A DNA stretch of 59,613 bases from Clostridiales bacterium GWF2_38_85. GTDB taxonomy: Bacteria > Bacillota > Clostridia > Oscillospirales > CAG-382. Positions within the stretch are counted from its first letter, which is position 1; each line of letters begins with the position of its first letter. The notes beneath the pieces are model-generated. The model did not search any database, was not told the origin of the DNA, and saw nothing but the letters and a program-made list of their open reading frames with translations. Shown one piece after another: positions 19,156-30,075 of the stretch. The stretch is from contig MGOY01000037.1 of the NCBI GenBank assembly GCA_001797275.1, positions 1 to 59,613 of the forward strand. The letters are read 5' to 3'. The translations under genes were made by a program, and so were the position numbers.

Positions 19156-22100
19156 TTATACTTTTCTTCTTTTAATAACTATAGCAGCAACACCAAGCAT
19201 TGCGATAAATGCAATAGCATAAATAGCTATTGAAGGATCACTTGTTTCAGGAGTCGTTGTCTCGCTGGATGTGTCTTCGGAAACATCATCGGAAACTTCA
19301 GATTCAACAGGAGCTTCAACTGCTTCATATGCTTCGATTTCGCTGAGCCATACATGTGAACCTGCATCACAAACAAACTTGATATAGCGAGCAGCTACTG
19401 TATGATCAAGCTCAACTATAAAGAAGTTGTCTGTTCTTTCTGTTGATGAACCTACCGCATAGTAGTTAATGCCATCTTCAGAAATTTCTATTGATATACC
19501 ATTAGGTTCTGCAATACCCCAATCTCCGCCGATAAGGTCGGCGCCAAACTTGTAGAGGTTGGAGTTAACTTCGCCAAGGTCAAGTATGAAGTTTGCACGC
19601 GGAGCATTTATACCTCTGCCGCTACCAAGATCACCACCATGATTTGTTCCATCAGTAAGAACGGTTGCATCGATCGCATATCCATCATCACGTTGACCAC
19701 CTGCTACATAAATTATTTCGTATGATTTATTCAATGAAACTTTATTGTACTGAGAATCGGAAGGAAGATTACCGGAAGAAGCTGCTTCGGGTAATACTGC
19801 CTCGTATGCTTCAATTTCACTGAGCCATACATGTGAACCTGCATCGCAAGCAAATTTAATATAACGAGCAGATATTGTATGATCAAGTTCAACTACAAAG
19901 AAATTATCTGTCTTTGTTGTAGATGAGCCAACATTATAATATGTTACACCGTCATCCGATACCGTAATTGTAATTCCGTTAGGTTCTGCAATACCCCAAG
20001 CTCCGCCAATAAGGTCAGCGCCGAATTTATAGAGCTTAGTATTTGATTCACCGAGATCAAGTATAAATTCTGCGTATGGAACATTCAGACCGAAACCGCC
20101 GCCGACTTCTCCACCATGCTTTAAGCCGTCTGTAAGAACAACGCCATCAATTATATAACTGTCTCTCTCTCCACCGTCGGAAATTATTTCATAGGTCTTA
20201 CTAACTGAAACAATGTTAGCTTCAACATTTCCGGGTACAGTACCTGTCGATGCAGCGTCACCTAATTCAACAACTACAGGTGCATACTTGATAACTTCGA
20301 TTTCGGATACCATGAAGAACATACCTGCATTCTGGATACCGACTTTGATATATCTTGCATTAATTGTTTTTGCAAATGTACAGGACGTCCATTGAATAGC
20401 AGTACCGTCATATGCGAGTGTGCCGACTTCATCCCATGCAATACCATTGCCGGAAGCGTAAACTTTAATCCATGTTGCAGCACCGACTGCGGGAGCAACC
20501 TGCATTCTGACACCGCCAAGGCCTGTGCCATCTGTGCCGACATCGATTATAGCTTCACCATATAATGAATAATTTATGTTACCCTTATCACCGTTTCTGT
20601 AGAACGAGAACCAAGGTGCACCATATGAGAAGCCTGCACCTTCAGCAGCGAATACACCGTCTGTAAAATCGCCGGAATATGTTGGTATCGCCGAATGATA
20701 ATCTATACCGGACCAATCCTTATTAAGAGCAACATTAGTTGCTTCACCTGTTGTATTGGGAGCTTCAGTACCGTAAACAACCTCCGGGAGTCTTTCAACT
20801 ATACCGGCTTCTGTCAGCGATGTAAATTCCCATACAACTTTGGTTGCAAATGGGCTGGGGCCTATATCATAAGAGATACCAATGTATTTTGCACTAACAT
20901 CCGGAATATCAAGGGTTGCTTCTATTGTTCCACGAGTTCCGGTTGCTGCGACACCTTCAAATGTGTATAAACCTAAACGTGTGTAGTTAACACCATCGTT
21001 GGAATAGCTGAGGATAATTCTGTTATTTTTGGGGAGACCAATCATAACATCATAATTGTGATATAAGTTGAGTAAAACCTTATCAACAATTTTCGCTGAG
21101 CCAAGGTTGAGCACTAAATCAACTGCAGGATTAATAGCAGCATCAGTGCAAACTTTATCCTGAATAAGAACTGCACCGGTTACAGGCCAAGCACCTGCAT
21201 CAGATACTTTATTGCCATCGGTAAGGAGTGATAAATCACCGACACCAATTTGAGTTGCATTCGAGAAGTTGTTAATACCGGCTGTATATCTTCTTGAAGC
21301 AAAACCTGCTTGATTCAAGTTTGCTTTTACTGCAGCTGTTGAAAGAGATTTTAAATTGACATTGTAGAGCGCTACAACATCACCAACTGCTATTGTCTTA
21401 AATTGATCAATAACTGCCTGAGTGTGATCGCCGCCGGGAGTAGCATTGCAAAGCAGAACATATCCGTTCTCAGGGACAACAAAACTATCTTTTTCACCGA
21501 GGATCGGATCAGTTGCATTTACTTTTCTTCCTAATTTCTGATTGATTTCGGTTACAACACCGTTAGAATCAACCGCAGCAAGGTAGAAGTAGTTGTAATC
21601 TTTTGCAGAGCCATATGTAACTGCAGAAATTTCGCCAATTGTTGTTTTATCACTGACTCTCGATATAATTGTTGAGGTGCTTCCAACATAATCACCAAAG
21701 TTGTCAATAGCCAAAGCTCCTGTAGGTAGATTTTGAATAATTGCACTACCTAGTGCAATGTTTGCAAAAGTAACATCAATGTCAGCTGTCTTATCCCATG
21801 CTTTATATGGAGCTTCTGCATTCCCTATAAGCTCGTGATCAGAGAAAGGACCGTATGACAAAGCATTGTTTCCGGTAACAGTTGTACCGTCATTGGTTAA
21901 AGGAGAAGATACTGTTGTATAGAAATGAGCTGATGTTGTTGCACCTATTTCAGCAAATGGAATAGCCATTTCGATATACCAATAACCGTCGCCCTTTGTG
22001 CTTATAGCGGTTAAACCGTTGATTGTAACTGCTGCGCCGGTGTTGCCGGTCGGATTTGTGTTATGGAGAACAGAAAGGGCATCACCACTTGGCTTATAAG

Positions 22101-22485
22101 CGTAGTTTATTATGTAATTATAAGTTGTATAATCTACACCTCCTGCCTGGCTTCCATCTACAAATGTCCATAAACGGAAGTTGGTTCCGCTACCGTTTCC
22201 AAATTTAGCATCTGTAGCAATAGGGTTAAAATTGCATTTTACTGCTACATACAAATTCGTTGAATCTGCACGAAATTGAAAATCATAGGTTTCGTTTCTT
22301 GTTTCGCCGCTTGTAAGAGGTGTCTGCCAGGCACCATTTGTACTGTCAACTGTAGTCCAGTTGTTACCAAGCCAAGCTGCTTCATCAAATTTGCCATCGA
22401 CTGTAATGGTATCAACAGCACTGGCAATAACACATACTGATAAAATCATTAAAGCTGACAACAACAGTGATAAAAATTTCTTCAT
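19156..22485 (-). CDS. Large surface protein with CBM9-like and discoidin domains
   Basis: 1109 residues. A signal peptide (1-23) is followed by a CBM9/DOMON-like sugar-binding module (about 25-245), a linking module and four F5/8-type C (discoidin) domains (about 400-560, 575-735, 750-893 and 900-1055). A Thr/Ser-rich stalk, one membrane helix (about 1082-1102) and KRRKV end the protein. TPETSDPS before the helix resembles a sorting signal but lacks LPxTG. The last two discoidin domains are near copies. No catalytic domain is seen. Inferred role: binding of polysaccharide or glycan at the cell surface. Confidence 0.75.
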   Translation of the reverse strand: MKKFLSLLLSALMILSVCVIASAVDTITVDGKFDEAAWLGNNWTTVDSTNGAWQTPLTSGETRNETYDFQFRADSTNLYVAVKCNFNPIATDAKFGNGSGTNFRLWTFVDGSQAGGVDYTTYNYIINYAYKPSGDALSVLHNTNPTGNTGAAVTINGLTAISTKGDGYWYIEMAIPFAEIGATTSAHFYTTVSSPLTNDGTTVTGNNALSYGPFSDHELIGNAEAPYKAWDKTADIDVTFANIALGSAIIQNLPTGALAIDNFGDYVGSTSTIISRVSDKTTIGEISAVTYGSAKDYNYFYLAAVDSNGVVTEINQKLGRKVNATDPILGEKDSFVVPENGYVLLCNATPGGDHTQAVIDQFKTIAVGDVVALYNVNLKSLSTAAVKANLNQAGFASRRYTAGINNFSNATQIGVGDLSLLTDGNKVSDAGAWPVTGAVLIQDKVCTDAAINPAVDLVLNLGSAKIVDKVLLNLYHNYDVMIGLPKNNRIILSYSNDGVNYTRLGLYTFEGVAATGTRGTIEATLDIPDVSAKYIGISYDIGPSPFATKVVWEFTSLTEAGIVERLPEVVYGTEAPNTTGEATNVALNKDWSGIDYHSAIPTYSGDFTDGVFAAEGAGFSYGAPWFSFYRNGDKGNINYSLYGEAIIDVGTDGTGLGGVRMQVAPAVGAATWIKVYASGNGIAWDEVGTLAYDGTAIQWTSCTFAKTINARYIKVGIQNAGMFFMVSEIEVIKYAPVVVELGDAASTGTVPGNVEANIVSVSKTYEIISDGGERDSYIIDGVVLTDGLKHGGEVGGGFGLNVPYAEFILDLGESNTKLYKFGADLIGGAWGIAEPNGITITVSDDGVTYYNVGSSTTKTDNFFVVELDHTISARYIKFACDAGSHVWLSEIEAYEAVLPEAASSGNLPSDSQYNKVSLNKSYEIIYVAGGQRDDGYAIDATVLTDGTNHGGDLGSGRGINAPRANFILDLGEVNSNLYKFGADLIGGDWGIAEPNGISIEISEDGINYYAVGSSTERTDNFFIVELDHTVAARYIKFVCDAGSHVWLSEIEAYEAVEAPVESEVSDDVSEDTSSETTTPETSDPSIAIYAIAFIAMLGVAAIVIKRRKV

Positions 22486-23074: not shown

Positions 23075-23563
23075 TTATTTTGTTTTCTGGTATGCCAGCC
23101 TTTCTTCGCCATTTCGCAGATATATTATTCCGCAATATTCGAAACCGTTCTTTTTCAACAGGCGCTGCATTGAAATATTGTCACGATGAGTATCGATTTT
23201 CAAATTTCCGCATTTCTCATAACACCAGTTAAGACAGTATGACGCAATACCCTTTTGATGTGCTGCAACAGCAATGCGATGCACAACCCCATATGGGTTG
23301 TCATTCAGCCAGCTTCCCTCATATATATTTATATATGTTGGATCTACACCTTTGATGTAGGCAAAGCATCCTAATAACTCGCTATTTTCGTTAACGCACA
23401 CATAGCTATTACCTGCAGTAATATCTGCCTTTATGACCTCGCACTGTGGGTAGCCGTTAATCTACTGGTGTATGTTTTCGTTATCTCTCATGTACTGACG
23501 GGCATCAGTATATATTTGCAAAAGCATTTCTAAATCATCTATTACGGAGTTTCTTATATTCAT
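23075..23563 (-). pseudogene. GNAT acetyltransferase interrupted by one nonsense codon
   Basis: The frame from ATG 23563 (MNIRNSVIDDLEMLLQIY) runs to TAA near 23075 (162 codons). A single TAG at 23464-23462 interrupts it, at the place where relatives have Trp (NIHQ-stop-INGYP). Downstream, all GNAT elements follow in the same frame: NSYVCVNENSELLGCF, then the acetyl-CoA loop VHRIAVAAHQKGIASY and the closing GFEYCGIIYL. Only one base (TGG to TAG) separates it from an intact gene, so inactivation looks recent. The downstream 108 codons could at most give an N-terminally truncated protein. Confidence 0.85.
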
Positions 23564-23687
23564 TTTCAGCTTGCCTTTCTGAGTAGTTTTTTGATGTAAA
23601 TTATTTTATCAATATTATATAATAAAGTAAAGGTAAATTGCTATAAAAATAATTTATAAATTTTGAGCGTCAAAGTAATTCATTCTG

Positions 23688-23716
23688 TTGACAAATTAGA
23701 TAATATGCGATAATAT
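23688..23716 (+). promoter_or_regulatory. Sigma-A promoter of the SPT-like cluster
   Basis: TTGACA (23688-23693), 17-base spacer, TAATAT (23711-23716). It leaves an untranslated leader of about 110 bases. I see no hairpin with a T-run in it. Confidence 0.65.
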
Positions 23717-23836
23717 ATAAACATACATATTAGATAACTACTTAAGTGATATATTTTTTAATACATTTTAATGAAGCAGCTTTGTTTGCTTTTCACTCTA
23801 TAAACAGTCATAAAACAAAAAAGGAGCAAGTAAAAA

Positions 23837-25015
23837 ATGGATATATTCGAAAAATGTTTTGAGAAATCTCTTGCTGACGAAGCAAAAGAAAGAGGTGTTT
23901 ATCCCTATTTCCATGCCCTTGAATCAAGGCAGGATGTTGAAGTAATAATGGAAGGTAAACGCCGCATTATGCTTGGCTCAAACAATTATCTCGGACTGAC
24001 AACAAATCCCGAAATTATAGAAGCCGGAATAAAAGCACTTGAAAAATACGGAACAGGCTGCTCAGGTTCGCGTTTTCTCAATGGAACGCTTGAAATGCAT
24101 CTTGAACTTGAAAAAGAGCTGGCTGAATTTTTACATAAAGAAGCTGTTATAACCTTCTCCACTGGCTTCCAGTCAAACCTCGGTATAATCAGTGCAATAG
24201 CAAAGCACGGCGACTACATCCTCAATGATAAAGAGAATCACGCAAGCATTTACGACGGCTGCAGACTCAGCTTTGCAAAAACCTTCTCATATAAGCACAG
24301 CGATATGGAGGATCTTGAACGCCAACTAAAAATTCTCGAAGGCAAGGGCGGAATCCTTATCATAACAGATGGTGTGTTCAGTATGACCGGTGATATTGCA
24401 AAACTTCCCGAAATCGTAACACTTGCAAGGAAGTACGGTGCGAGAATTATGGTGGACGATGCACACGGACTGGGTATTGTCGGCGAGGGCGGAAGAGGTA
24501 CCGCAAGCCATTTCGGACTTGAGGAAGAGGTCGATATCTACATGGGCACCTTCAGCAAGTCGCTTGCAAGCCTTGGCGGTTATATGGCAGCTAAAAAGCA
24601 GGTTATTGATTATGTGCGTCACTGTTCGAGGCCATTCATCTTCTCAGCATCAATCACACCTTCAAGCTGTGCAGTTGCACTTGCAGCGCTTAGATATTTG
24701 AAGGCACATCCGGAGATTGTAGGCAGGCTCGAATCACTGTCGAACTATGCACGTCAGGGTCTGAAGCAGCGCGGAATGCAGATAATCGAATCAACAACGC
24801 CTATTATACCGATTTATACATATGATATGTTCAATACGCTTGAGAAAGCAAAGGAAATATATGATGCCGGAATATATCTGAACCCTGTACTTCCTCCGGC
24901 AGCAAACCCCGGTGAGTGTCTGCTCCGCAGCAGCTATATGGCTTCGCATACCGAAGCATTGCTTGATGAAGCTATGGATATTATCGCTTCCATACTTGCA
25001 AAAAATAATGGGTAA
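23837..25015 (+). CDS. Alpha-oxoamine synthase, serine palmitoyltransferase-like
   Basis: PLP-dependent fold-type I enzyme of 392 residues. The family condenses an amino acid with an acyl-CoA and releases CO2 (SPT, KBL, BioF, HemA). PLP-contacting DDAHG lies near 208 and the Schiff-base lysine in GTFSKS near 240. The YPYFHALES start, SNNYLGLT, GTGCSGSRFLNGTLEMHLELE and NPVLPPAANP look, from memory, closer to bacterial serine palmitoyltransferases than to BioF. No biotin genes are nearby, and an SDR reductase overlaps the 3' end, as expected for a 3-ketosphinganine-type pathway. The start is ATG 23837 behind AAGGAG. Acyl donor and amino acid are not proven. Confidence 0.75.
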   Translation: MDIFEKCFEKSLADEAKERGVYPYFHALESRQDVEVIMEGKRRIMLGSNNYLGLTTNPEIIEAGIKALEKYGTGCSGSRFLNGTLEMHLELEKELAEFLHKEAVITFSTGFQSNLGIISAIAKHGDYILNDKENHASIYDGCRLSFAKTFSYKHSDMEDLERQLKILEGKGGILIITDGVFSMTGDIAKLPEIVTLARKYGARIMVDDAHGLGIVGEGGRGTASHFGLEEEVDIYMGTFSKSLASLGGYMAAKKQVIDYVRHCSRPFIFSASITPSSCAVALAALRYLKAHPEIVGRLESLSNYARQGLKQRGMQIIESTTPIIPIYTYDMFNTLEKAKEIYDAGIYLNPVLPPAANPGECLLRSSYMASHTEALLDEAMDIIASILAKNNG

Positions 25016-25799
25016 GGTTGCAGTTATAACCGGCGGAAGCTCAGGCATCGGACTTTGTACAGCAAAAGCACTTTTACAAAAAGGTTGCACTGTTTACGAG
25101 CTTAGCAGAAGAGATAATGAGGTCAAAGGAATCAACCATATCAAGACAGATATAACCGATATTGGTATGGTTAATGATGCAATCCGCTGGATTATCAAAA
25201 AAGAAAAACGAATCGATGTTCTGATAAACAACGCAGGCTGGGGTATATCGGGTGCAGTTGAATTCACTGAAACCGATGAAGCTAAAAAGCTGATGGATAT
25301 AAACTTTTTCGGTGCTGTCAACACCGTGAAAGCAGTTCTCCCACATATGCGCGAAGCGGGAAGCGGACGTATAGTCAACCTCAGTTCGGTTGCGGCACAA
25401 CTCCCGATTCCTTTCCAGACATATTATTCGGTGTCAAAAGCGGCTGTCAACTCCTACACAATGGCACTTGTCAATGAAGTTAAACCCTTCGGCGTAAGTG
25501 TCTGTGCAGTTATGCCGGGTGACATCAAGACGGGCTTCACTCAGGCAAGAAAGAAGCTGCATGACGGTGATGGCATCTACAACGGCAGGATATCCCGCTC
25601 TGTTTCGATAATGGAAAAGGACGAGCAGAACGGAATGGCGCCGGAGGTTGCAGGTGAGTTCATCAGCAGAATCGCACTAAAAAATAAAGTAAAACCGATT
25701 TATACGATCGGACTGCAATATAAAATATTTGTTGTTTTAGCTAAAATACTGCCATACGGATTGGTAAACAAAATCGTGGGGATGTTATACGCAAAATAA
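25008..25799 (+). CDS. Short-chain dehydrogenase/reductase, 3-ketosphinganine-reductase-like
   Basis: 263 residues from ATG 25008, which overlaps the last codons of the synthase gene by 8 bp (coupled translation). The N-terminal MGKVAVITGGSSGIG is the NAD(P)-binding start, and the NNAG motif follows in VLINNAGWGISG. The catalytic Ser lies in NLSSVAA and Tyr-x3-Lys in YYSVSK near 140. The C-terminal ~60 residues include a hydrophobic stretch (QYKIFVVLAKILPYGLVNKI), which suggests membrane association as in ketosphinganine reductases. Inferred role: reduction of the ketone made by the preceding enzyme. A general SDR role cannot be excluded. Confidence 0.75.
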   Translation: MGKVAVITGGSSGIGLCTAKALLQKGCTVYELSRRDNEVKGINHIKTDITDIGMVNDAIRWIIKKEKRIDVLINNAGWGISGAVEFTETDEAKKLMDINFFGAVNTVKAVLPHMREAGSGRIVNLSSVAAQLPIPFQTYYSVSKAAVNSYTMALVNEVKPFGVSVCAVMPGDIKTGFTQARKKLHDGDGIYNGRISRSVSIMEKDEQNGMAPEVAGEFISRIALKNKVKPIYTIGLQYKIFVVLAKILPYGLVNKIVGMLYAK

Positions 25800-25803
25800 A
25801 ACG

Positions 25804-25836
25804 ATTGTAGGGGGGGCTTGTTCCCGCCGTGAACGT
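25804..25836. repeat. REP-like palindromic repeat
   Basis: ATTGTAGGGGGGGCTTGTTC followed by CCGCCGTGAACG. From memory it resembles a degenerate form of the GTAGGGGCG...CGCCCGTGAAC palindromes dispersed in many clostridial genomes and often mobilised by RAYT transposases. It sits in the only gap inside the SPT-like cluster. Confidence 0.4.
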
Positions 25837-25861
25837 AATAACAGGAAAGGAAGAAATATAT

Positions 25862-26617
25862 ATGAAAGATAGCAGAACTCTCGCATTTATAAATCTATAT
25901 GCAATTTTGGGCAACCTGTCCAGACTTTGCGAGCTTGTTCCTGAAGCAAGAAAGCTGATCGAGAACGAAAATGTTTCGCTGGGAATCCAGGTCAAGAACG
26001 GGCCGGCAGCAACGCTCTGCTTCAACAACGGTGTCTGCACAATTGAGGACGGTGTTGATAACTGCAACATTAAACTTCCGTTTTCATCACCCGAAAAATT
26101 CAATGGAATGATTGACGGTACAGTCAAACCCTTTCCGTCCAAAGGCTTCACTAAAATTGGATTTTTACTGAATACATTTACAAAGCTGACAGATATATTG
26201 CCAAAATATCTTAAAGCTTCCGAAGAAGATTTAAAAAACGAAGAATTTTTCAAAACAAGTACAATTCTAATGCTACATGTCATTGCTGAAGCGATAGCAC
26301 AAATCGGAAACGAAGACAAGGTCGGCAAAGCAAGCGCATCATATATTGATGATGGTATTGCGAAGCTTGGTATTGGTGATGAGCTTGGAGTCGGTATCGA
26401 AGTGAAGGATCACAGACTTAAGGTAATACATACAATGCCGGATAAATACTTGTCATATATGAGATTCAATGATATCAGCCTCGCAAGGGATTTGTTTGAC
26501 GGTAAGGTCAATGCTGTTGCCGCAGTCGGATTGGGACAGGTTCGAATCGGCGGTATGATCTCGCAGATCGACAATATCAACCGCATACTTGACAGAGTTG
26601 CACTTTATTTAGCCTGA
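25862..26617 (+). CDS. SCP2-like lipid-binding domain protein
   Basis: 251 residues from ATG 25862 with AGGAAAGGAAG at 25842-25852; a GTG at 25829 has no ribosome binding site. Residues 25-110 match the SCP2 sterol-carrier pattern (LGIQVKNGPAATLCF, later SSPEKFNGMIDGT). The remaining ~140 residues are less typical. No signal peptide or membrane helix is seen. SCP2 domains bind hydrophobic lipids or acyl chains. In this cluster it could present a fatty-acyl or sphingoid intermediate. The function is inferred from context. Confidence 0.6.
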   Translation: MKDSRTLAFINLYAILGNLSRLCELVPEARKLIENENVSLGIQVKNGPAATLCFNNGVCTIEDGVDNCNIKLPFSSPEKFNGMIDGTVKPFPSKGFTKIGFLLNTFTKLTDILPKYLKASEEDLKNEEFFKTSTILMLHVIAEAIAQIGNEDKVGKASASYIDDGIAKLGIGDELGVGIEVKDHRLKVIHTMPDKYLSYMRFNDISLARDLFDGKVNAVAAVGLGQVRIGGMISQIDNINRILDRVALYLA

Positions 26618-26637
26618 AAGAAAGTTGGAGGATAAAA

Positions 26638-27879
26638 ATGCATAAGATAAACGATTACTCAAAAAGCCGCGAATATTTTGAACGCGCATCAAAGGTTATC
26701 CCGTCAGGCATATATGGTCACCAGGGACCGGCAGAGGGTTGTTATATTCCGGTCGAAGCGTTCCCGTTTTTTTCTGAGAAGGCGCAGGGTACATACTTCT
26801 GGGATGTTGACGGTAACAAATTCATAGACTATATGTGCGCATATGGTCCAAATATACTCGGTTATAATGATTCCGATGTTGATGCTGCCGCAGCTGCACA
26901 AAGAAAAATTGGAGACTGTATAACTGCACCTTCAACAAAGATGATTGAATTTGCGGAATTATTAGTTGATACAGTTGCAACAGCAGACTGGTCGTTTTTT
27001 GCCAAAAACGGAAATGATGTTACCACGATGGCGGTTATGGCTTCGAGAGCATACACACACCGCAAGAAAATAATATTCTTCAAGGGTTATTATCACGGTG
27101 TATCACCTTGGACACAGAAAATTGATTATGCCGGAATCATCGAAGAGGATGTATGTAACAATATCTACCTTCAGTGGAACGATTTTGACGCAATACAGGC
27201 AACCTTCGATAAATACAAGGGTGAGATAGCTGCTGTTATCGGTCAGCCTTATATGCACGGCAACTTCAAGGATAATACTTTACCCGAAAAAGACTTCTGG
27301 CAGAAGGTAAGAAAACTTTGCACCGATAATGATACCATACTTATCATCGATGATGTACGCGCAGGCTTCCGTCTTGATATAGCAGGCAGCGACCATTACT
27401 TTGGCTTTGAAGCAGACCTTATCTGCTTCTGTAAGGCACTCGCAAACGGATACAATGTTTCTGCACTCTGCGGCAAGAATTTCTTGAAAAACGCAGTTTC
27501 AAGTATGTCCTACACCGGCAGCTATTGGCTTTCGGCTGTACCCTTTGCGGCAGGCATCGCCTGCATAACCAAGATGAGAGAACAGAATATACCCAAGCTG
27601 TTGAATGAAAAAGGTACAAAGCTCAAAGAAGGTTTAATAAACACAGCTAAAAAGCACGGATATGATCTTCATGTATCCGGTGCAGCTTCGCTGTTCTACC
27701 TGAGACTTGCCGACGATCCTACACTTATGTTACATCAGAAATGGATTGCGGAATGTGTCAAGCGAGGTGTATTCTTTACAAGTCACCATAACCACTTCGT
27801 CAATGCGGCTCTTTCGGATGAGGATATTGCTGAAACAATCGAAATCGCTGATGAAGCATTTACAGAAATAAAGAAATAA
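26638..27879 (+). CDS. Class III aminotransferase (GSA-aminomutase-like)
   Basis: 413 residues, PLP-dependent. WDVDGNKFIDYMCAYGPNIL near the N-terminus, DDVRAGFR near residue 240 and the lysine of FCKALANGYN near 266 fit the glutamate-1-semialdehyde-aminomutase branch. The usual GGGLP after the lysine is replaced by NGYNVSALCG, so the substrate probably differs from GSA, and no haem genes are nearby. GGAGG at 26627-26631 precedes the start, 20 bp after the SCP2 gene. It would add, remove or move an amino group in the product of this cluster. Confidence 0.7.
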   Translation: MHKINDYSKSREYFERASKVIPSGIYGHQGPAEGCYIPVEAFPFFSEKAQGTYFWDVDGNKFIDYMCAYGPNILGYNDSDVDAAAAAQRKIGDCITAPSTKMIEFAELLVDTVATADWSFFAKNGNDVTTMAVMASRAYTHRKKIIFFKGYYHGVSPWTQKIDYAGIIEEDVCNNIYLQWNDFDAIQATFDKYKGEIAAVIGQPYMHGNFKDNTLPEKDFWQKVRKLCTDNDTILIIDDVRAGFRLDIAGSDHYFGFEADLICFCKALANGYNVSALCGKNFLKNAVSSMSYTGSYWLSAVPFAAGIACITKMREQNIPKLLNEKGTKLKEGLINTAKKHGYDLHVSGAASLFYLRLADDPTLMLHQKWIAECVKRGVFFTSHHNHFVNAALSDEDIAETIEIADEAFTEIKK

Positions 27880-27951
27880 TACCCCTGAAATTCTGTGTGT
27901 TATTTCGTATTTATTAATAAAAGTACAAAAACGGATTGGCAGGCGAAAATA

Positions 27952-30075
27952 ATGACAAAAAACAAAACAAGCAGAAGTACGAAAATATTCCTGATGCTGA
28001 TGATACTTGTTTATATCCTGCAGCTTTCATCGTTTGGTTCGCTTGCGGTAATTCAGGAGAATATTTACGAGGTATCATATAGTCGTGCCTACCTTGCCGA
28101 TAACAGTGCTGCATATTCAACAATATATACGGCGCTTTCTGATTCTGCGTCGCAGATCGATGTGTCAAGCTATTCATTGACACGCGAAGAAGCAACAGAA
28201 TTATATTTTCGTATTCTTTATGAGGACCCGGACTTATTTTATGTGCAAACCTCTATTCAATATAGCTATAACCAGCATGATATTGTACAATATATTGTAC
28301 CGTCATATACAATGTCGGGAAGCGCTCTGACAATTGCAAAGCAAAGATATGCTACAGAGCTTGCGAATATAGTCGACAGTGTGAATGCGAGCTGGAGCGA
28401 TCTCGAAAAGGTCATGTATGTTAATGATTATTTTGCAATTAATTATAAATACGACTCAACACTAACCATTGCAGATGCTTATTCGTTGTTTATCGGAAAG
28501 ACCGGTGTCTGCCAGGCATACACCCTTGCATTTATCGCTGTAATGAACGAGCTTGGCATTCTTGTAACCTATGCTCTCAGCGAAGATATGAACCATACTT
28601 GGAATCTTGTTTCTGTCGGCGGTCAATGGTATCATATTGATGTTACCTGGAACGATCCAACCGGTGATATGCCGGGTAGAGCCGGACATGGCAACTTCCT
28701 GCTCAGCGACACAGCTATCCAGGCAACAAATCACCACGACTGGGTAGCTGATTATGACTGCACCTCGACAAAATACGATAATTATTTCTGGAAGGATGTC
28801 AATACACCGTTTATTAATAACAACGGTAGCTGGTATTATATAAAGAAGAGTGATTCTGCATTATACAGATATAATTTCAGTACAAACGCAAGTATGTCTG
28901 TGTTTACAATTCAAGAGAAGTGGCCTTCATTGTCTAACCCCGGTTCATATTGGGTTGGCTGTTTTTCAGGTCTCGGAACATATAACGATATTCTGTACTA
29001 CAACACAGCAACAAAGGTTTACGCATATAACCCTGCAAACGGTTCAACTTATGCAGTTTACACACATAACACTGAAAGTAATAATCTTTATTATATCACA
29101 ATAAGCGGAAGTACATTAACTTATTACCTTTATACCTCACCCAACAGCGCATCTGTCGGTTCGGGAGCGGTGAAGTTGGGCAGTGTAACAACCCAGTTTA
29201 CGATTACCTATAAGGTTGCCAGCTTGGTTTACAAAACCCAGACCTATATGGTTGGTGATACAGTTACTCCGCCGACAAATCCGCAAAAGTCGGGTTATGA
29301 TTTCACAGGGTGGAACCCTGTACTACCTTTAACAATGCCTGCAAACAATCTGACTGTTAGTGCAATGTTTACAGTTTCTATTTGCCAGCACACCTCGACA
29401 CATCAGGTCACAACAGCAGCAACCTGTACAACTAACGGGAAAATCGAAACAATTTGCGATGATTGTGGAGCAGTTATTTCCACAACTGTTATCCTCGCAA
29501 CAGGCCATACTCAGGGCAGCTGGATTACAACAAAACAGCCAACCTGCAGCGATTCGGGAACAAAAGTGCAGAAATGTACAGTCTGCGGTGTTGTTATTGC
29601 AACACAGACCATACCTGCGACCGGTGATCATACTTACGGCGACTGGGTTATTGTGAAGCAACCGACACAGACCGAAACAGGATTAAAACAAAAAACCTGT
29701 ACAGTCTGCGGCGATGTAATAAGTGAAGCAATCCCTAAACTTACAAGTAATGAAGAATCAGAAATTAATACATCCACTGTTGAAAATACATCTGGTTCAG
29801 AAGAATCGAGTATAAACGAAAATTCTGATACTGAATCACAAGATGATATCAGCTCGCAGAATGAATCGGAAATCATTAATGTTTCCGAGCAGCAATCAGA
29901 AACATCTGAGAATGGAAGCAATATATCATCAGAAGACAACAGCAATGAATACGAATCATATATTATAAACGATGATAATGACAATGAATTTAATTTTATG
30001 TATATTTTAATTATTATTGTTGTTTTGGGTATAATAATAACATTAGTTATTATCATAGTTAAGAAAATGAAATAA
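27952..30075 (+). CDS. Surface transglutaminase-like protein with Cys-pair repeats
   Basis: 707 residues from ATG 27952 (MTKNKTSRSTKIF); an upstream ATG at 27895 would add a non-conserved head. A signal-like helix spans about 12-34. The transglutaminase-like domain (about 60-285) has Cys (TGVCQAYT, ~187), His (MNHTWN, ~215) and Asp (HIDVTWND, ~229). Residues 420-475 are an InlB B-type repeat (YKTQTYMVGDTV, GYDFTGWNP). Three CxxC-bearing repeats follow (ETICDDCG, KCTVCGVV, TCTVCGDV), then an acidic Ser/Glu-rich stalk and a C-terminal membrane helix. Inferred role: cell-surface peptidase or cross-linker. Confidence 0.75.
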   Translation: MTKNKTSRSTKIFLMLMILVYILQLSSFGSLAVIQENIYEVSYSRAYLADNSAAYSTIYTALSDSASQIDVSSYSLTREEATELYFRILYEDPDLFYVQTSIQYSYNQHDIVQYIVPSYTMSGSALTIAKQRYATELANIVDSVNASWSDLEKVMYVNDYFAINYKYDSTLTIADAYSLFIGKTGVCQAYTLAFIAVMNELGILVTYALSEDMNHTWNLVSVGGQWYHIDVTWNDPTGDMPGRAGHGNFLLSDTAIQATNHHDWVADYDCTSTKYDNYFWKDVNTPFINNNGSWYYIKKSDSALYRYNFSTNASMSVFTIQEKWPSLSNPGSYWVGCFSGLGTYNDILYYNTATKVYAYNPANGSTYAVYTHNTESNNLYYITISGSTLTYYLYTSPNSASVGSGAVKLGSVTTQFTITYKVASLVYKTQTYMVGDTVTPPTNPQKSGYDFTGWNPVLPLTMPANNLTVSAMFTVSICQHTSTHQVTTAATCTTNGKIETICDDCGAVISTTVILATGHTQGSWITTKQPTCSDSGTKVQKCTVCGVVIATQTIPATGDHTYGDWVIVKQPTQTETGLKQKTCTVCGDVISEAIPKLTSNEESEINTSTVENTSGSEESSINENSDTESQDDISSQNESEIINVSEQQSETSENGSNISSEDNSNEYESYIINDDNDNEFNFMYILIIIVVLGIIITLVIIIVKKMK

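Follow-up and report, generated by a model that had tools for sequence, protein, structure and literature searches.

A FumI-like aminotransferase with an SCP2-fold partner in a clostridial operon of serine palmitoyltransferase-like type: a candidate module of sphingoid-base metabolism

Introduction

The synthesis of sphingoid bases by serine palmitoyltransferase (SPT) and 3-ketodihydrosphingosine reductase (KDSR) is already known. A stretch of 59,613 nucleotides from Clostridiales bacterium GWF2_38_85 (contig MGOY01000037.1; the whole stretch is hereafter called the window) raises the question of what an aminotransferase does beside such a pair of genes: here, genes for an SPT-like synthase (gene 1) and a KDSR-like short-chain dehydrogenase/reductase (SDR; gene 2) are followed by genes for an SCP2-fold protein (gene 3) and a class III aminotransferase (gene 4). 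We lean towards the view that a long-chain base is made, and can be deaminated, by the products of the operon, and that a transketolase encoded by relatives acts on the resulting ketone. The analysis shows the identity of the genes at family level, their pairing, linkage and co-occurrence and the residue changes, all substrates and directions being inferred from these.

A FumI-like aminotransferase and its SCP2-fold partner

Gene 4 finds its best match in the PDB in FumI (6hbs, 346 bits), with which it shares the class III fold, 178 bits ahead of the next match, GSAM (4e77, 168 bits). Its Lys266 is invariant in an alignment of 12 sequences and, by position, is presumed to be the pyridoxal 5'-phosphate (PLP) lysine. 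In the alignment with 4e77, about a dozen residues are missing from gene 4 in the region that we take to act as the gate of GSAM. A role as the GSAM of haem synthesis was rejected, as far as sequence can tell, on the hemL equivalog score (220.6 bits against a cut-off of 527.3), on the match to FumI and on the failure to detect glutamyl-tRNA reductase (PF05201) in the window's own genome; this reductase was likewise not found in 22 of the 24 aminotransferase genomes searched and was found in 10 of 14 controls. The substrate of FumI is hydrolysed fumonisin B1, a sphinganine analogue whose C2 amine it hands on to pyruvate (PMC2933618), and the best reading, by analogy, is that gene 4 acts on the C2 amine of a sphingoid base. 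Members of the family of gene 4 differ from FumI in having an SCP2-fold partner, in Clostridia as well as Treponema, and in being linked to SPT or transketolase. Its nearest named relatives belong to metagenome bins of Oscillospiraceae or Clostridia, many of them from animal gut by title.

Gene 3 has no match in Pfam, SCP2 included, or in NCBIfam, the only hit up to E 10 being a sub-threshold HepT-like one (E 0.018). Its AlphaFold2 model, built with 20 homologues, has a mean pLDDT of 92.4 and consists of two similar runs of helices and strands. The C-terminal half of the model matches SCP-2 domains in Foldseek and VIA-align comparisons, best of all human SCP-2L (6z1w, Z 11.0, 2.8 Å over 110 residues); alkylsulfatases in the same structure lists match mainly through their C-terminal part. 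The C-terminal half is thus predicted to adopt the SCP2 fold, the N-terminal lobe appears SCP2-like by its secondary-structure pattern alone, and the protein is presumed to be a lipid carrier that differs from the sterol carrier protein 2 family, which it resembles at Z of about 11, in its two lobes, its length of 251 amino acids and the lack of a sequence-level Pfam match.

The pairing of genes 3 and 4 was followed through 394 genomes of the window's order, 23 of which encode the aminotransferase at E 1e-60 (23 loci fetched, one of them, L060, reached via the SCP2 protein), and through a second set taken from named genomes, made up of the 80 best aminotransferase loci out of 573, from which a further 50 aminotransferase genomes were drawn. 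The SCP2-like gene lies directly upstream of the aminotransferase gene in 22 of the 23 loci, the exception being L059, and in all 80 named-genome loci. The two genes are a constant, independent module, in which the aminotransferase travels with the SCP2 protein rather than with SPT.

The synthase, the reductase and the operon

Among 17 NCBIfam families, gene 1 scores best against NF047600, the Bacteroidota-type SPT (518.7 bits), followed by BioF/Kbl-like proteins (391.6), glycine C-acetyltransferase (384.7), BioF (374.2) and ALAS (252.9). The PDB gives the same picture: an SPT (3a2b/8guh) matches over nearly the full length at 404 bits, other SPT structures reach at most 288 bits, KBL and BioF at most 267, and cysteate acyltransferase 247. 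The His and PLP-Lys regions, to which we assign the roles assumed for them in SPT, align with 3a2b/8guh, of which 3a2b is, we take it, the enzyme of Sphingobacterium. By these comparisons gene 1 is closer to SPT than to BioF, KBL or ALAS, and an identity as BioF or KBL was ruled out, SPT being ahead by more than 120 bits in NCBIfam and more than 130 bits in the PDB. We call it 'SPT-like' because it misses the NF047600 equivalog cut-off, and it probably represents a divergent clostridial group; it also differs from the Bacteroidota-type enzyme in an operon that includes an aminotransferase. Within the order, the relatives that match less well, at 34-42% identity, are apparently other alpha-oxoamine synthases (AOS), and the single divergent AOS tested, L079, is a true KBL (529 bits), in a genome (G352) that holds a separate, 72%-identical SPT; SPT was therefore counted only where the match exceeded 380 bits.

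The best of 223 NCBIfam families for gene 2 is NF049977, KdsR (235.7 bits, next 216.8), and its Pfam match is adh_short (167 bits). Gene 2 is thus nearest to KDSR by a small margin, and this assignment is strengthened by its location directly after the SPT-like gene; the known counterpart is the 3-ketosphinganine reductase KdsR, as in BT_0972 (PMC9278070). Pfam and NCBIfam together back the enzyme classes of genes 1, 2 and 4.

The four open reading frames are collinear on the plus strand (23837-27879; Table 1). The SDR ATG at 25008 creates an 8-bp overlap with the synthase gene, 62 bp separate the SDR gene from the ATG of the SCP2-like gene at 25862, and 20 bp precede the aminotransferase gene; a GTG start listed at 25829 for the SCP2-like gene is probably unused because the alignments of its relatives begin near the ATG. 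A single promoter for the four genes is only plausible, because matches of the TTGACA-17-TAATAT type are about as frequent in shuffled sequence (15 sites in 23400-28000, shuffles mean 11.3, sd 3.6).

Table 1. Features of the operon region in the window
Feature	Coordinates	Strand	Basis
Promoter-like site of sigma-70 type, TTGACA-17-TAATAT, upstream of the operon (weak)	23688-23716	+	Consensus scan
SPT-like alpha-oxoamine synthase of the Bacteroidota ('CFB') type, 392 aa	23837-25015	+	NCBIfam and PDB matches
SDR, KDSR-like, 263 aa from ATG	25008-25799	+	NCBIfam, Pfam
Two-lobed SCP2-fold protein, 251 aa; presumed lipid carrier and aminotransferase partner	25862-26617	+	Predicted model
Class III aminotransferase of the FumI (aminopentol aminotransferase) subfamily, 413 aa	26638-27879	+	PDB match

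A preliminary description, made from the letters alone, had reported the same tight order and spacings, with which the coordinates agree, and had placed the genes behind one promoter, for which a motif is present and does not rise above shuffled sequence. Its view of the synthase as SPT-type rather than BioF or KBL and of the SDR as a 3-ketosphinganine reductase is borne out by the family scores, the latter narrowly; an SCP2 protein and an aminotransferase without the GSA-type loop were also recognized correctly, to judge by the predicted fold of the C-terminal half of gene 3 and the part of the gate region missing from gene 4. The sphingoid pathway proposed there is largely right.

Exchange of partners around the module

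The SPT and SDR genes are contiguous with the SCP2-aminotransferase pair in 5 genomes and in two arrangements, so the four-gene set is not a chance grouping: the order SPT-SDR-SCP-AT (SCP and AT denoting proteins of the gene 3 and gene 4 types) is found in the window, L038 and L060, and SCP-AT-SPT-SDR in L043 and L044. Three of these genomes were seen again among the named-genome loci. A lack of conserved gene order in relatives, which the preliminary description named as grounds for refutation, is therefore only half borne out: the four-gene order is present in three genomes and a permuted one in two, and elsewhere the halves are separate modules. In L091 (2257-9257), a KDSR-like SDR, a 1097-aa AMP-ligase/ACP/AOS fusion, which seems to load its own acyl chain, and a second SDR precede the pair. 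In family f23 and others, the pair is next to, on one side or the other, the split N and C chains of a transketolase (TKN and TKC) and a second SCP2-like protein, SCPb, which is homologous to SCP (hhalign 97.9%, 219 columns) and whose model (pLDDT 90.3) has a similar order of elements. The three chemistries linked to the pair, namely SPT with KDSR, the SDR and AOS fusion of L091, and transketolase with SCPb, share, as we read them, a 2-amino- or 2-keto-1,3-diol.

Among the loci with no SPT or transketolase nearby, no common partner was found in more than 9 of the 80. The neighbour clusters c2, c4, c7 and c8 recur in 7-9 of the 80 loci, mostly in rabbit ('Lapin') bins, and in some Treponema (L120:7816-9021, L143:9880-11070) the pair is followed by what by eye appears to be a NifS/IscS-like cysteine desulfurase.

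The P values for co-occurrence ignore relatedness, and many of the genomes are incomplete bins. SCPb occurs in 13 of the 394 genomes of the order, all 13 of which encode the aminotransferase (Fisher 1.6e-18), and SPT in 53; no genome has both, which alone is not significant (p 0.23). The 50 further aminotransferase genomes add 13 with SPT (two of them truncated at contig ends, with 353 bits for one of the two), 9 with SCPb and again none with both. Oscillibacter valericigenes An860/An890 encodes the SCP2-aminotransferase pair, and neither SPT nor SCPb was detected in it. Pooled, 74 aminotransferase genomes, including one (G038) that was searched for cluster-type TKC (none) and never for SCPb, comprise 23 with SPT and 22 with SCPb, with no overlap against 6.8 expected (P 4e-5). 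On the aminotransferase tree, the partner labels require 16 changes (shuffled mean 35.5), indicating that partners were exchanged several times; the L155 row of this tree is a distant aminotransferase, and the label of its genome is still among the 22.

A modified split transketolase in the relatives

The cluster-type TKC was defined by more than 50% identity and 300 bits to that of L049, and the counts hold for that subfamily: 26 loci in 24 genomes (L109 and L205 being the same genome, as are L124 and L204). In the tree they group in a single clade (99/97), from which the remaining TKC-like proteins of these genomes are separate. Those of seven further cluster genomes share 55-75% of their residues with the L049 protein, as opposed to 44% at most for other TKC in the same genomes, and all-pair identities are 52-100% within the cluster type versus 38-49%; a housekeeping role was ruled out by this gap in identity and by the separate clade. 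SCPb follows TKC in 25 of the 26 loci, the remaining one, L159, ending at a contig edge.

In human numbering read off the alignment, E366, H416 and R474 are retained in all 26 loci, the acceptor Asp of the GEDG motif (D424) is Ala in all 26, and the position of R318 is Ala, Ser or Thr in 21. We take E366 (IAEQ) to be the catalytic Glu of transketolase, and D424 and R318 to correspond to D469 and R358 of the E. coli enzyme. In a control of other TKC-like rows, which omits L231 and includes more distant members of the superfamily, 16 of 21 keep the acceptor Asp, among them typical split TKC with KATR and GEDG; aminotransferase genomes lacking SCPb supplied 20 more TKC, 18 of which also have GEDG. 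In the 51 aminotransferase genomes in which SCPb was not found (G038 counted with them), the cluster-type TKC was not seen either (best 258 bits, 44%), and the window's genome has none (best 204 bits).

The C chain of the split transketolase of Carboxydothermus (6yaj) matches the TKC of the relatives at 256.8 bits and (PMC7661550) differs from them in the acceptor Asp (Ala in the relatives), in the Arg at R318 (replaced in the 21 loci) and in the absence of the added SCPb. The same paper gives four positions that bear on aromatic aldehydes, namely R358, S385, D469 and R520, and PMC5073344 describes the evolution of E. coli transketolase, in which the aldehydes used were first phosphorylated, then aliphatic and at last aromatic; the end point was S385Y/D469T/R520Q.

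Proposed pathway and direction

The operon can be assembled into the following scheme. The synthase would form 3-ketosphinganine from serine and a long acyl thioester, and the SDR, by its family, would reduce this to sphinganine. The SCP2-fold protein may present the insoluble base to the aminotransferase, which would exchange the C2 amine with an oxo-acid, probably as the pyruvate/alanine pair used by FumI, to yield a 1,3-dihydroxyalkan-2-one. In the relatives, the split transketolase with SCPb would cleave this ketone between C2 and C3 into a fatty aldehyde, finished in some genomes by a class-3 aldehyde dehydrogenase (ALDH), and a two-carbon unit passed to a sugar. The pair in the window, whose genome has none of the cluster-type transketolases, most probably works on sphinganine made by the cell itself: the aminotransferase could adjust or dispose of it, or make a keto-lipid end product. 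Where the pair has no recognized partner, it may serve the disposal of foreign, membrane-active sphingoid bases.

For the transketolase genomes, we favour deamination followed by cleavage because of the ALDH found in three of them and of the alanine dehydrogenase in L059. The fullest transaminase-transketolase cassette seen, in the Treponema locus L149 (1891-9242), reads TKN-TKC-SCPb-ADH-ALDH-SCP-AT, and a chicken Oscillospiraceae bin (L109) has SCP-AT-TKN-TKC-SCPb-ADH, a 378-aa gene and ALDH, the 378-aa product starting like a MerR regulator by eye and having no NCBIfam match at 1e-20. The orders TKN-TKC-SCPb-ALDH and TKN-TKC-SCPb-ADH occur in L203 and L201, respectively; in the fetched stretches of the 24 transketolase genomes, class-3 ALDH and ADH are each present in 3. 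The ALDH has its best PDB matches in 6k0z, an aldehyde dehydrogenase that bears no specific name (462 bits), and in human class-3 fatty aldehyde dehydrogenase (405), followed by benzaldehyde dehydrogenase (353), two entries at 336-341, steroid aldehyde dehydrogenase (269) and others at 155 bits or less. In L059 (1554-9695), a distant aminotransferase (52%) without SCP2 is divergently oriented from genes for a BaiCD-like flavoenzyme (below cut-off), a GPH symporter, alanine dehydrogenase (TIGR00518, 517.7 bits, above cut-off), TKN (assigned by position and eye) and a TKC that also lacks the GEDG Asp. The gene content of this locus suggests a cluster for the breakdown of a soluble amino compound, and having an alanine dehydrogenase next to a transaminase is how breakdown pathways usually recycle pyruvate.

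Alternative explanations

Several observations weigh against the reading that the operon makes a base, that the aminotransferase removes its amine and that the relatives' transketolase takes the ketone. Both synthetic genes fall under the curated cut-offs of their families (518.7 against 640 bits for NF047600, 235.7 against 400 for KdsR). The enrichment of SPT is modest (9 of 23 aminotransferase genomes versus 44 of 371 others, p 0.0014); SPT is linked to the pair in 4 of the 9 genomes and lies apart from it in 5, and in 28 of the 50 further genomes neither SPT nor SCPb was detected. The aminotransferase of the window appears to undo the product of SPT and KDSR, and no ketone-using enzyme was found; the fate of the ketone in SPT genomes is the weakest step. 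The relative in L059, with a sugar-type symporter and no SCP2, suggests that the family probably also acts on something soluble. The signature of the transketolase is imperfect on both sides: the phosphate-site Arg is retained in 5 of the 26 cluster loci, and the acceptor Asp is also lost in 5 of the 21 control rows. Finally, transketolases normally give the (3S) alcohol, the opposite of the 3R configuration of natural sphinganine, and it is therefore not certain that D-erythro sphinganine would simply be cleaved.

Of the other explanations, synthesis in the opposite direction is the live rival, and we consider it unlikely rather than far-fetched: the transketolase of the relatives would build sphinganine-like bases without SPT by adding a two-carbon ketol to a fatty aldehyde, the aminotransferase would aminate C2, and SPT and transketolase would be interchangeable. 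The complete separation of SPT and SCPb in the 74 genomes, seen although the partner labels change 16 times on the tree, and the nesting of the transketolase genomes L124 and L135 inside the SPT genome set (98/90) agree with such interchange. That separation, however, also follows from the futility of synthesis and breakdown in one cell and partly reflects shared ancestry; the class-3 ALDH and the L059 alanine dehydrogenase fit breakdown better, and the retention of the aminotransferase in SPT genomes would be left unexplained. Amino-alcohols, 2-amino-1,3,4-butanetriol among them, have been produced by engineers who coupled a transketolase with a transaminase (PMC5813273). The same two reaction types thus stand in series there, but in an artificial cascade with a short polar substrate run in the synthetic direction, as opposed to a natural cassette with presumed lipid carriers.

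It is quite improbable that the aminotransferase acts on an unrelated amine and is linked to SPT in five genomes by coincidence. The low share of SPT among the aminotransferase genomes of the order (9 of 23) and the L059 relative with its symporter would suit such a role, which is harder to reconcile with SPT linkage in two arrangements, with the different AOS fusion in L091, with the constant pairing to a predicted lipid-carrier fold and with the FumI kinship. We give still less weight to the role assigned in the preliminary description, that of tailoring the head of a finished sphingolipid or supplying SPT with an unusual amino donor: operon linkage with SPT speaks for it, but the closest solved relative deaminates C2 of a sphingoid analogue, and the pair, travelling with its SCP2 protein, often occurs without SPT (14 of 23 genomes of the order sample and 37 of the 50 further ones), so these roles are not supported. 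An ordinary BioF or KBL next to a glutamate-1-semialdehyde aminotransferase, enzymes of the same superfamilies, is scarcely credible given the lead of the SPT scores, the missed hemL cut-off and the glutamyl-tRNA reductase not found in the window's own genome.

Beyond the deamination of a self-made base, which we prefer for the window, a wider proposal is tentative, and we doubt it slightly more than we credit it. Clostridia and Treponema may possess a sphingoid pathway without sphingosine-1-phosphate lyase, in which an SCP2-presented transaminase and a lipid-adapted split transketolase yield a fatty aldehyde and a two-carbon unit delivered to a sugar phosphate, or the reverse, an SPT-independent synthesis; the window would then be a variant joined to SPT and KDSR.

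Genomic setting

The source genome comprises 2.83 Mb in 47 contigs, of which the window is contig 37, and is 96% complete. Just downstream of the operon lies a gene for a large transglutaminase-core protein with a Flg_new repeat (27895-30075). Upstream, on the minus strand, are a short open reading frame judged by eye to be GNAT acetyltransferase-like (23075-23401) and a gene for a secreted-looking 1109-aa protein with F5/8 type C domains (19156-22485).

Implications

Host, diet and Bacteroides all supply the gut with sphingoid bases, which influence immunity and membranes; in free form such bases are harmful to Gram-positive cells. We know of no C-C bond chemistry of the transketolase kind in sphingolipid metabolism. 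In the open-access literature we found neither a FumI-type transaminase with its own SCP2 protein in an SPT-KDSR operon nor its alternation with a lipid-adapted transketolase, nor clostridial SPT genes or a route to or from sphingoid bases by way of transketolase, although such a negative does not prove that none exists; searches within PMC12816596 and PMC11334938 brought up no relevant passage. The way in which Clostridia handle sphingoid lipids would become accessible through a dedicated transaminase module, and the same enzymes might act on hydrolysed fumonisin, the substrate of FumI. The link to transketolase, if true, would add C-C bond chemistry to sphingolipid metabolism.

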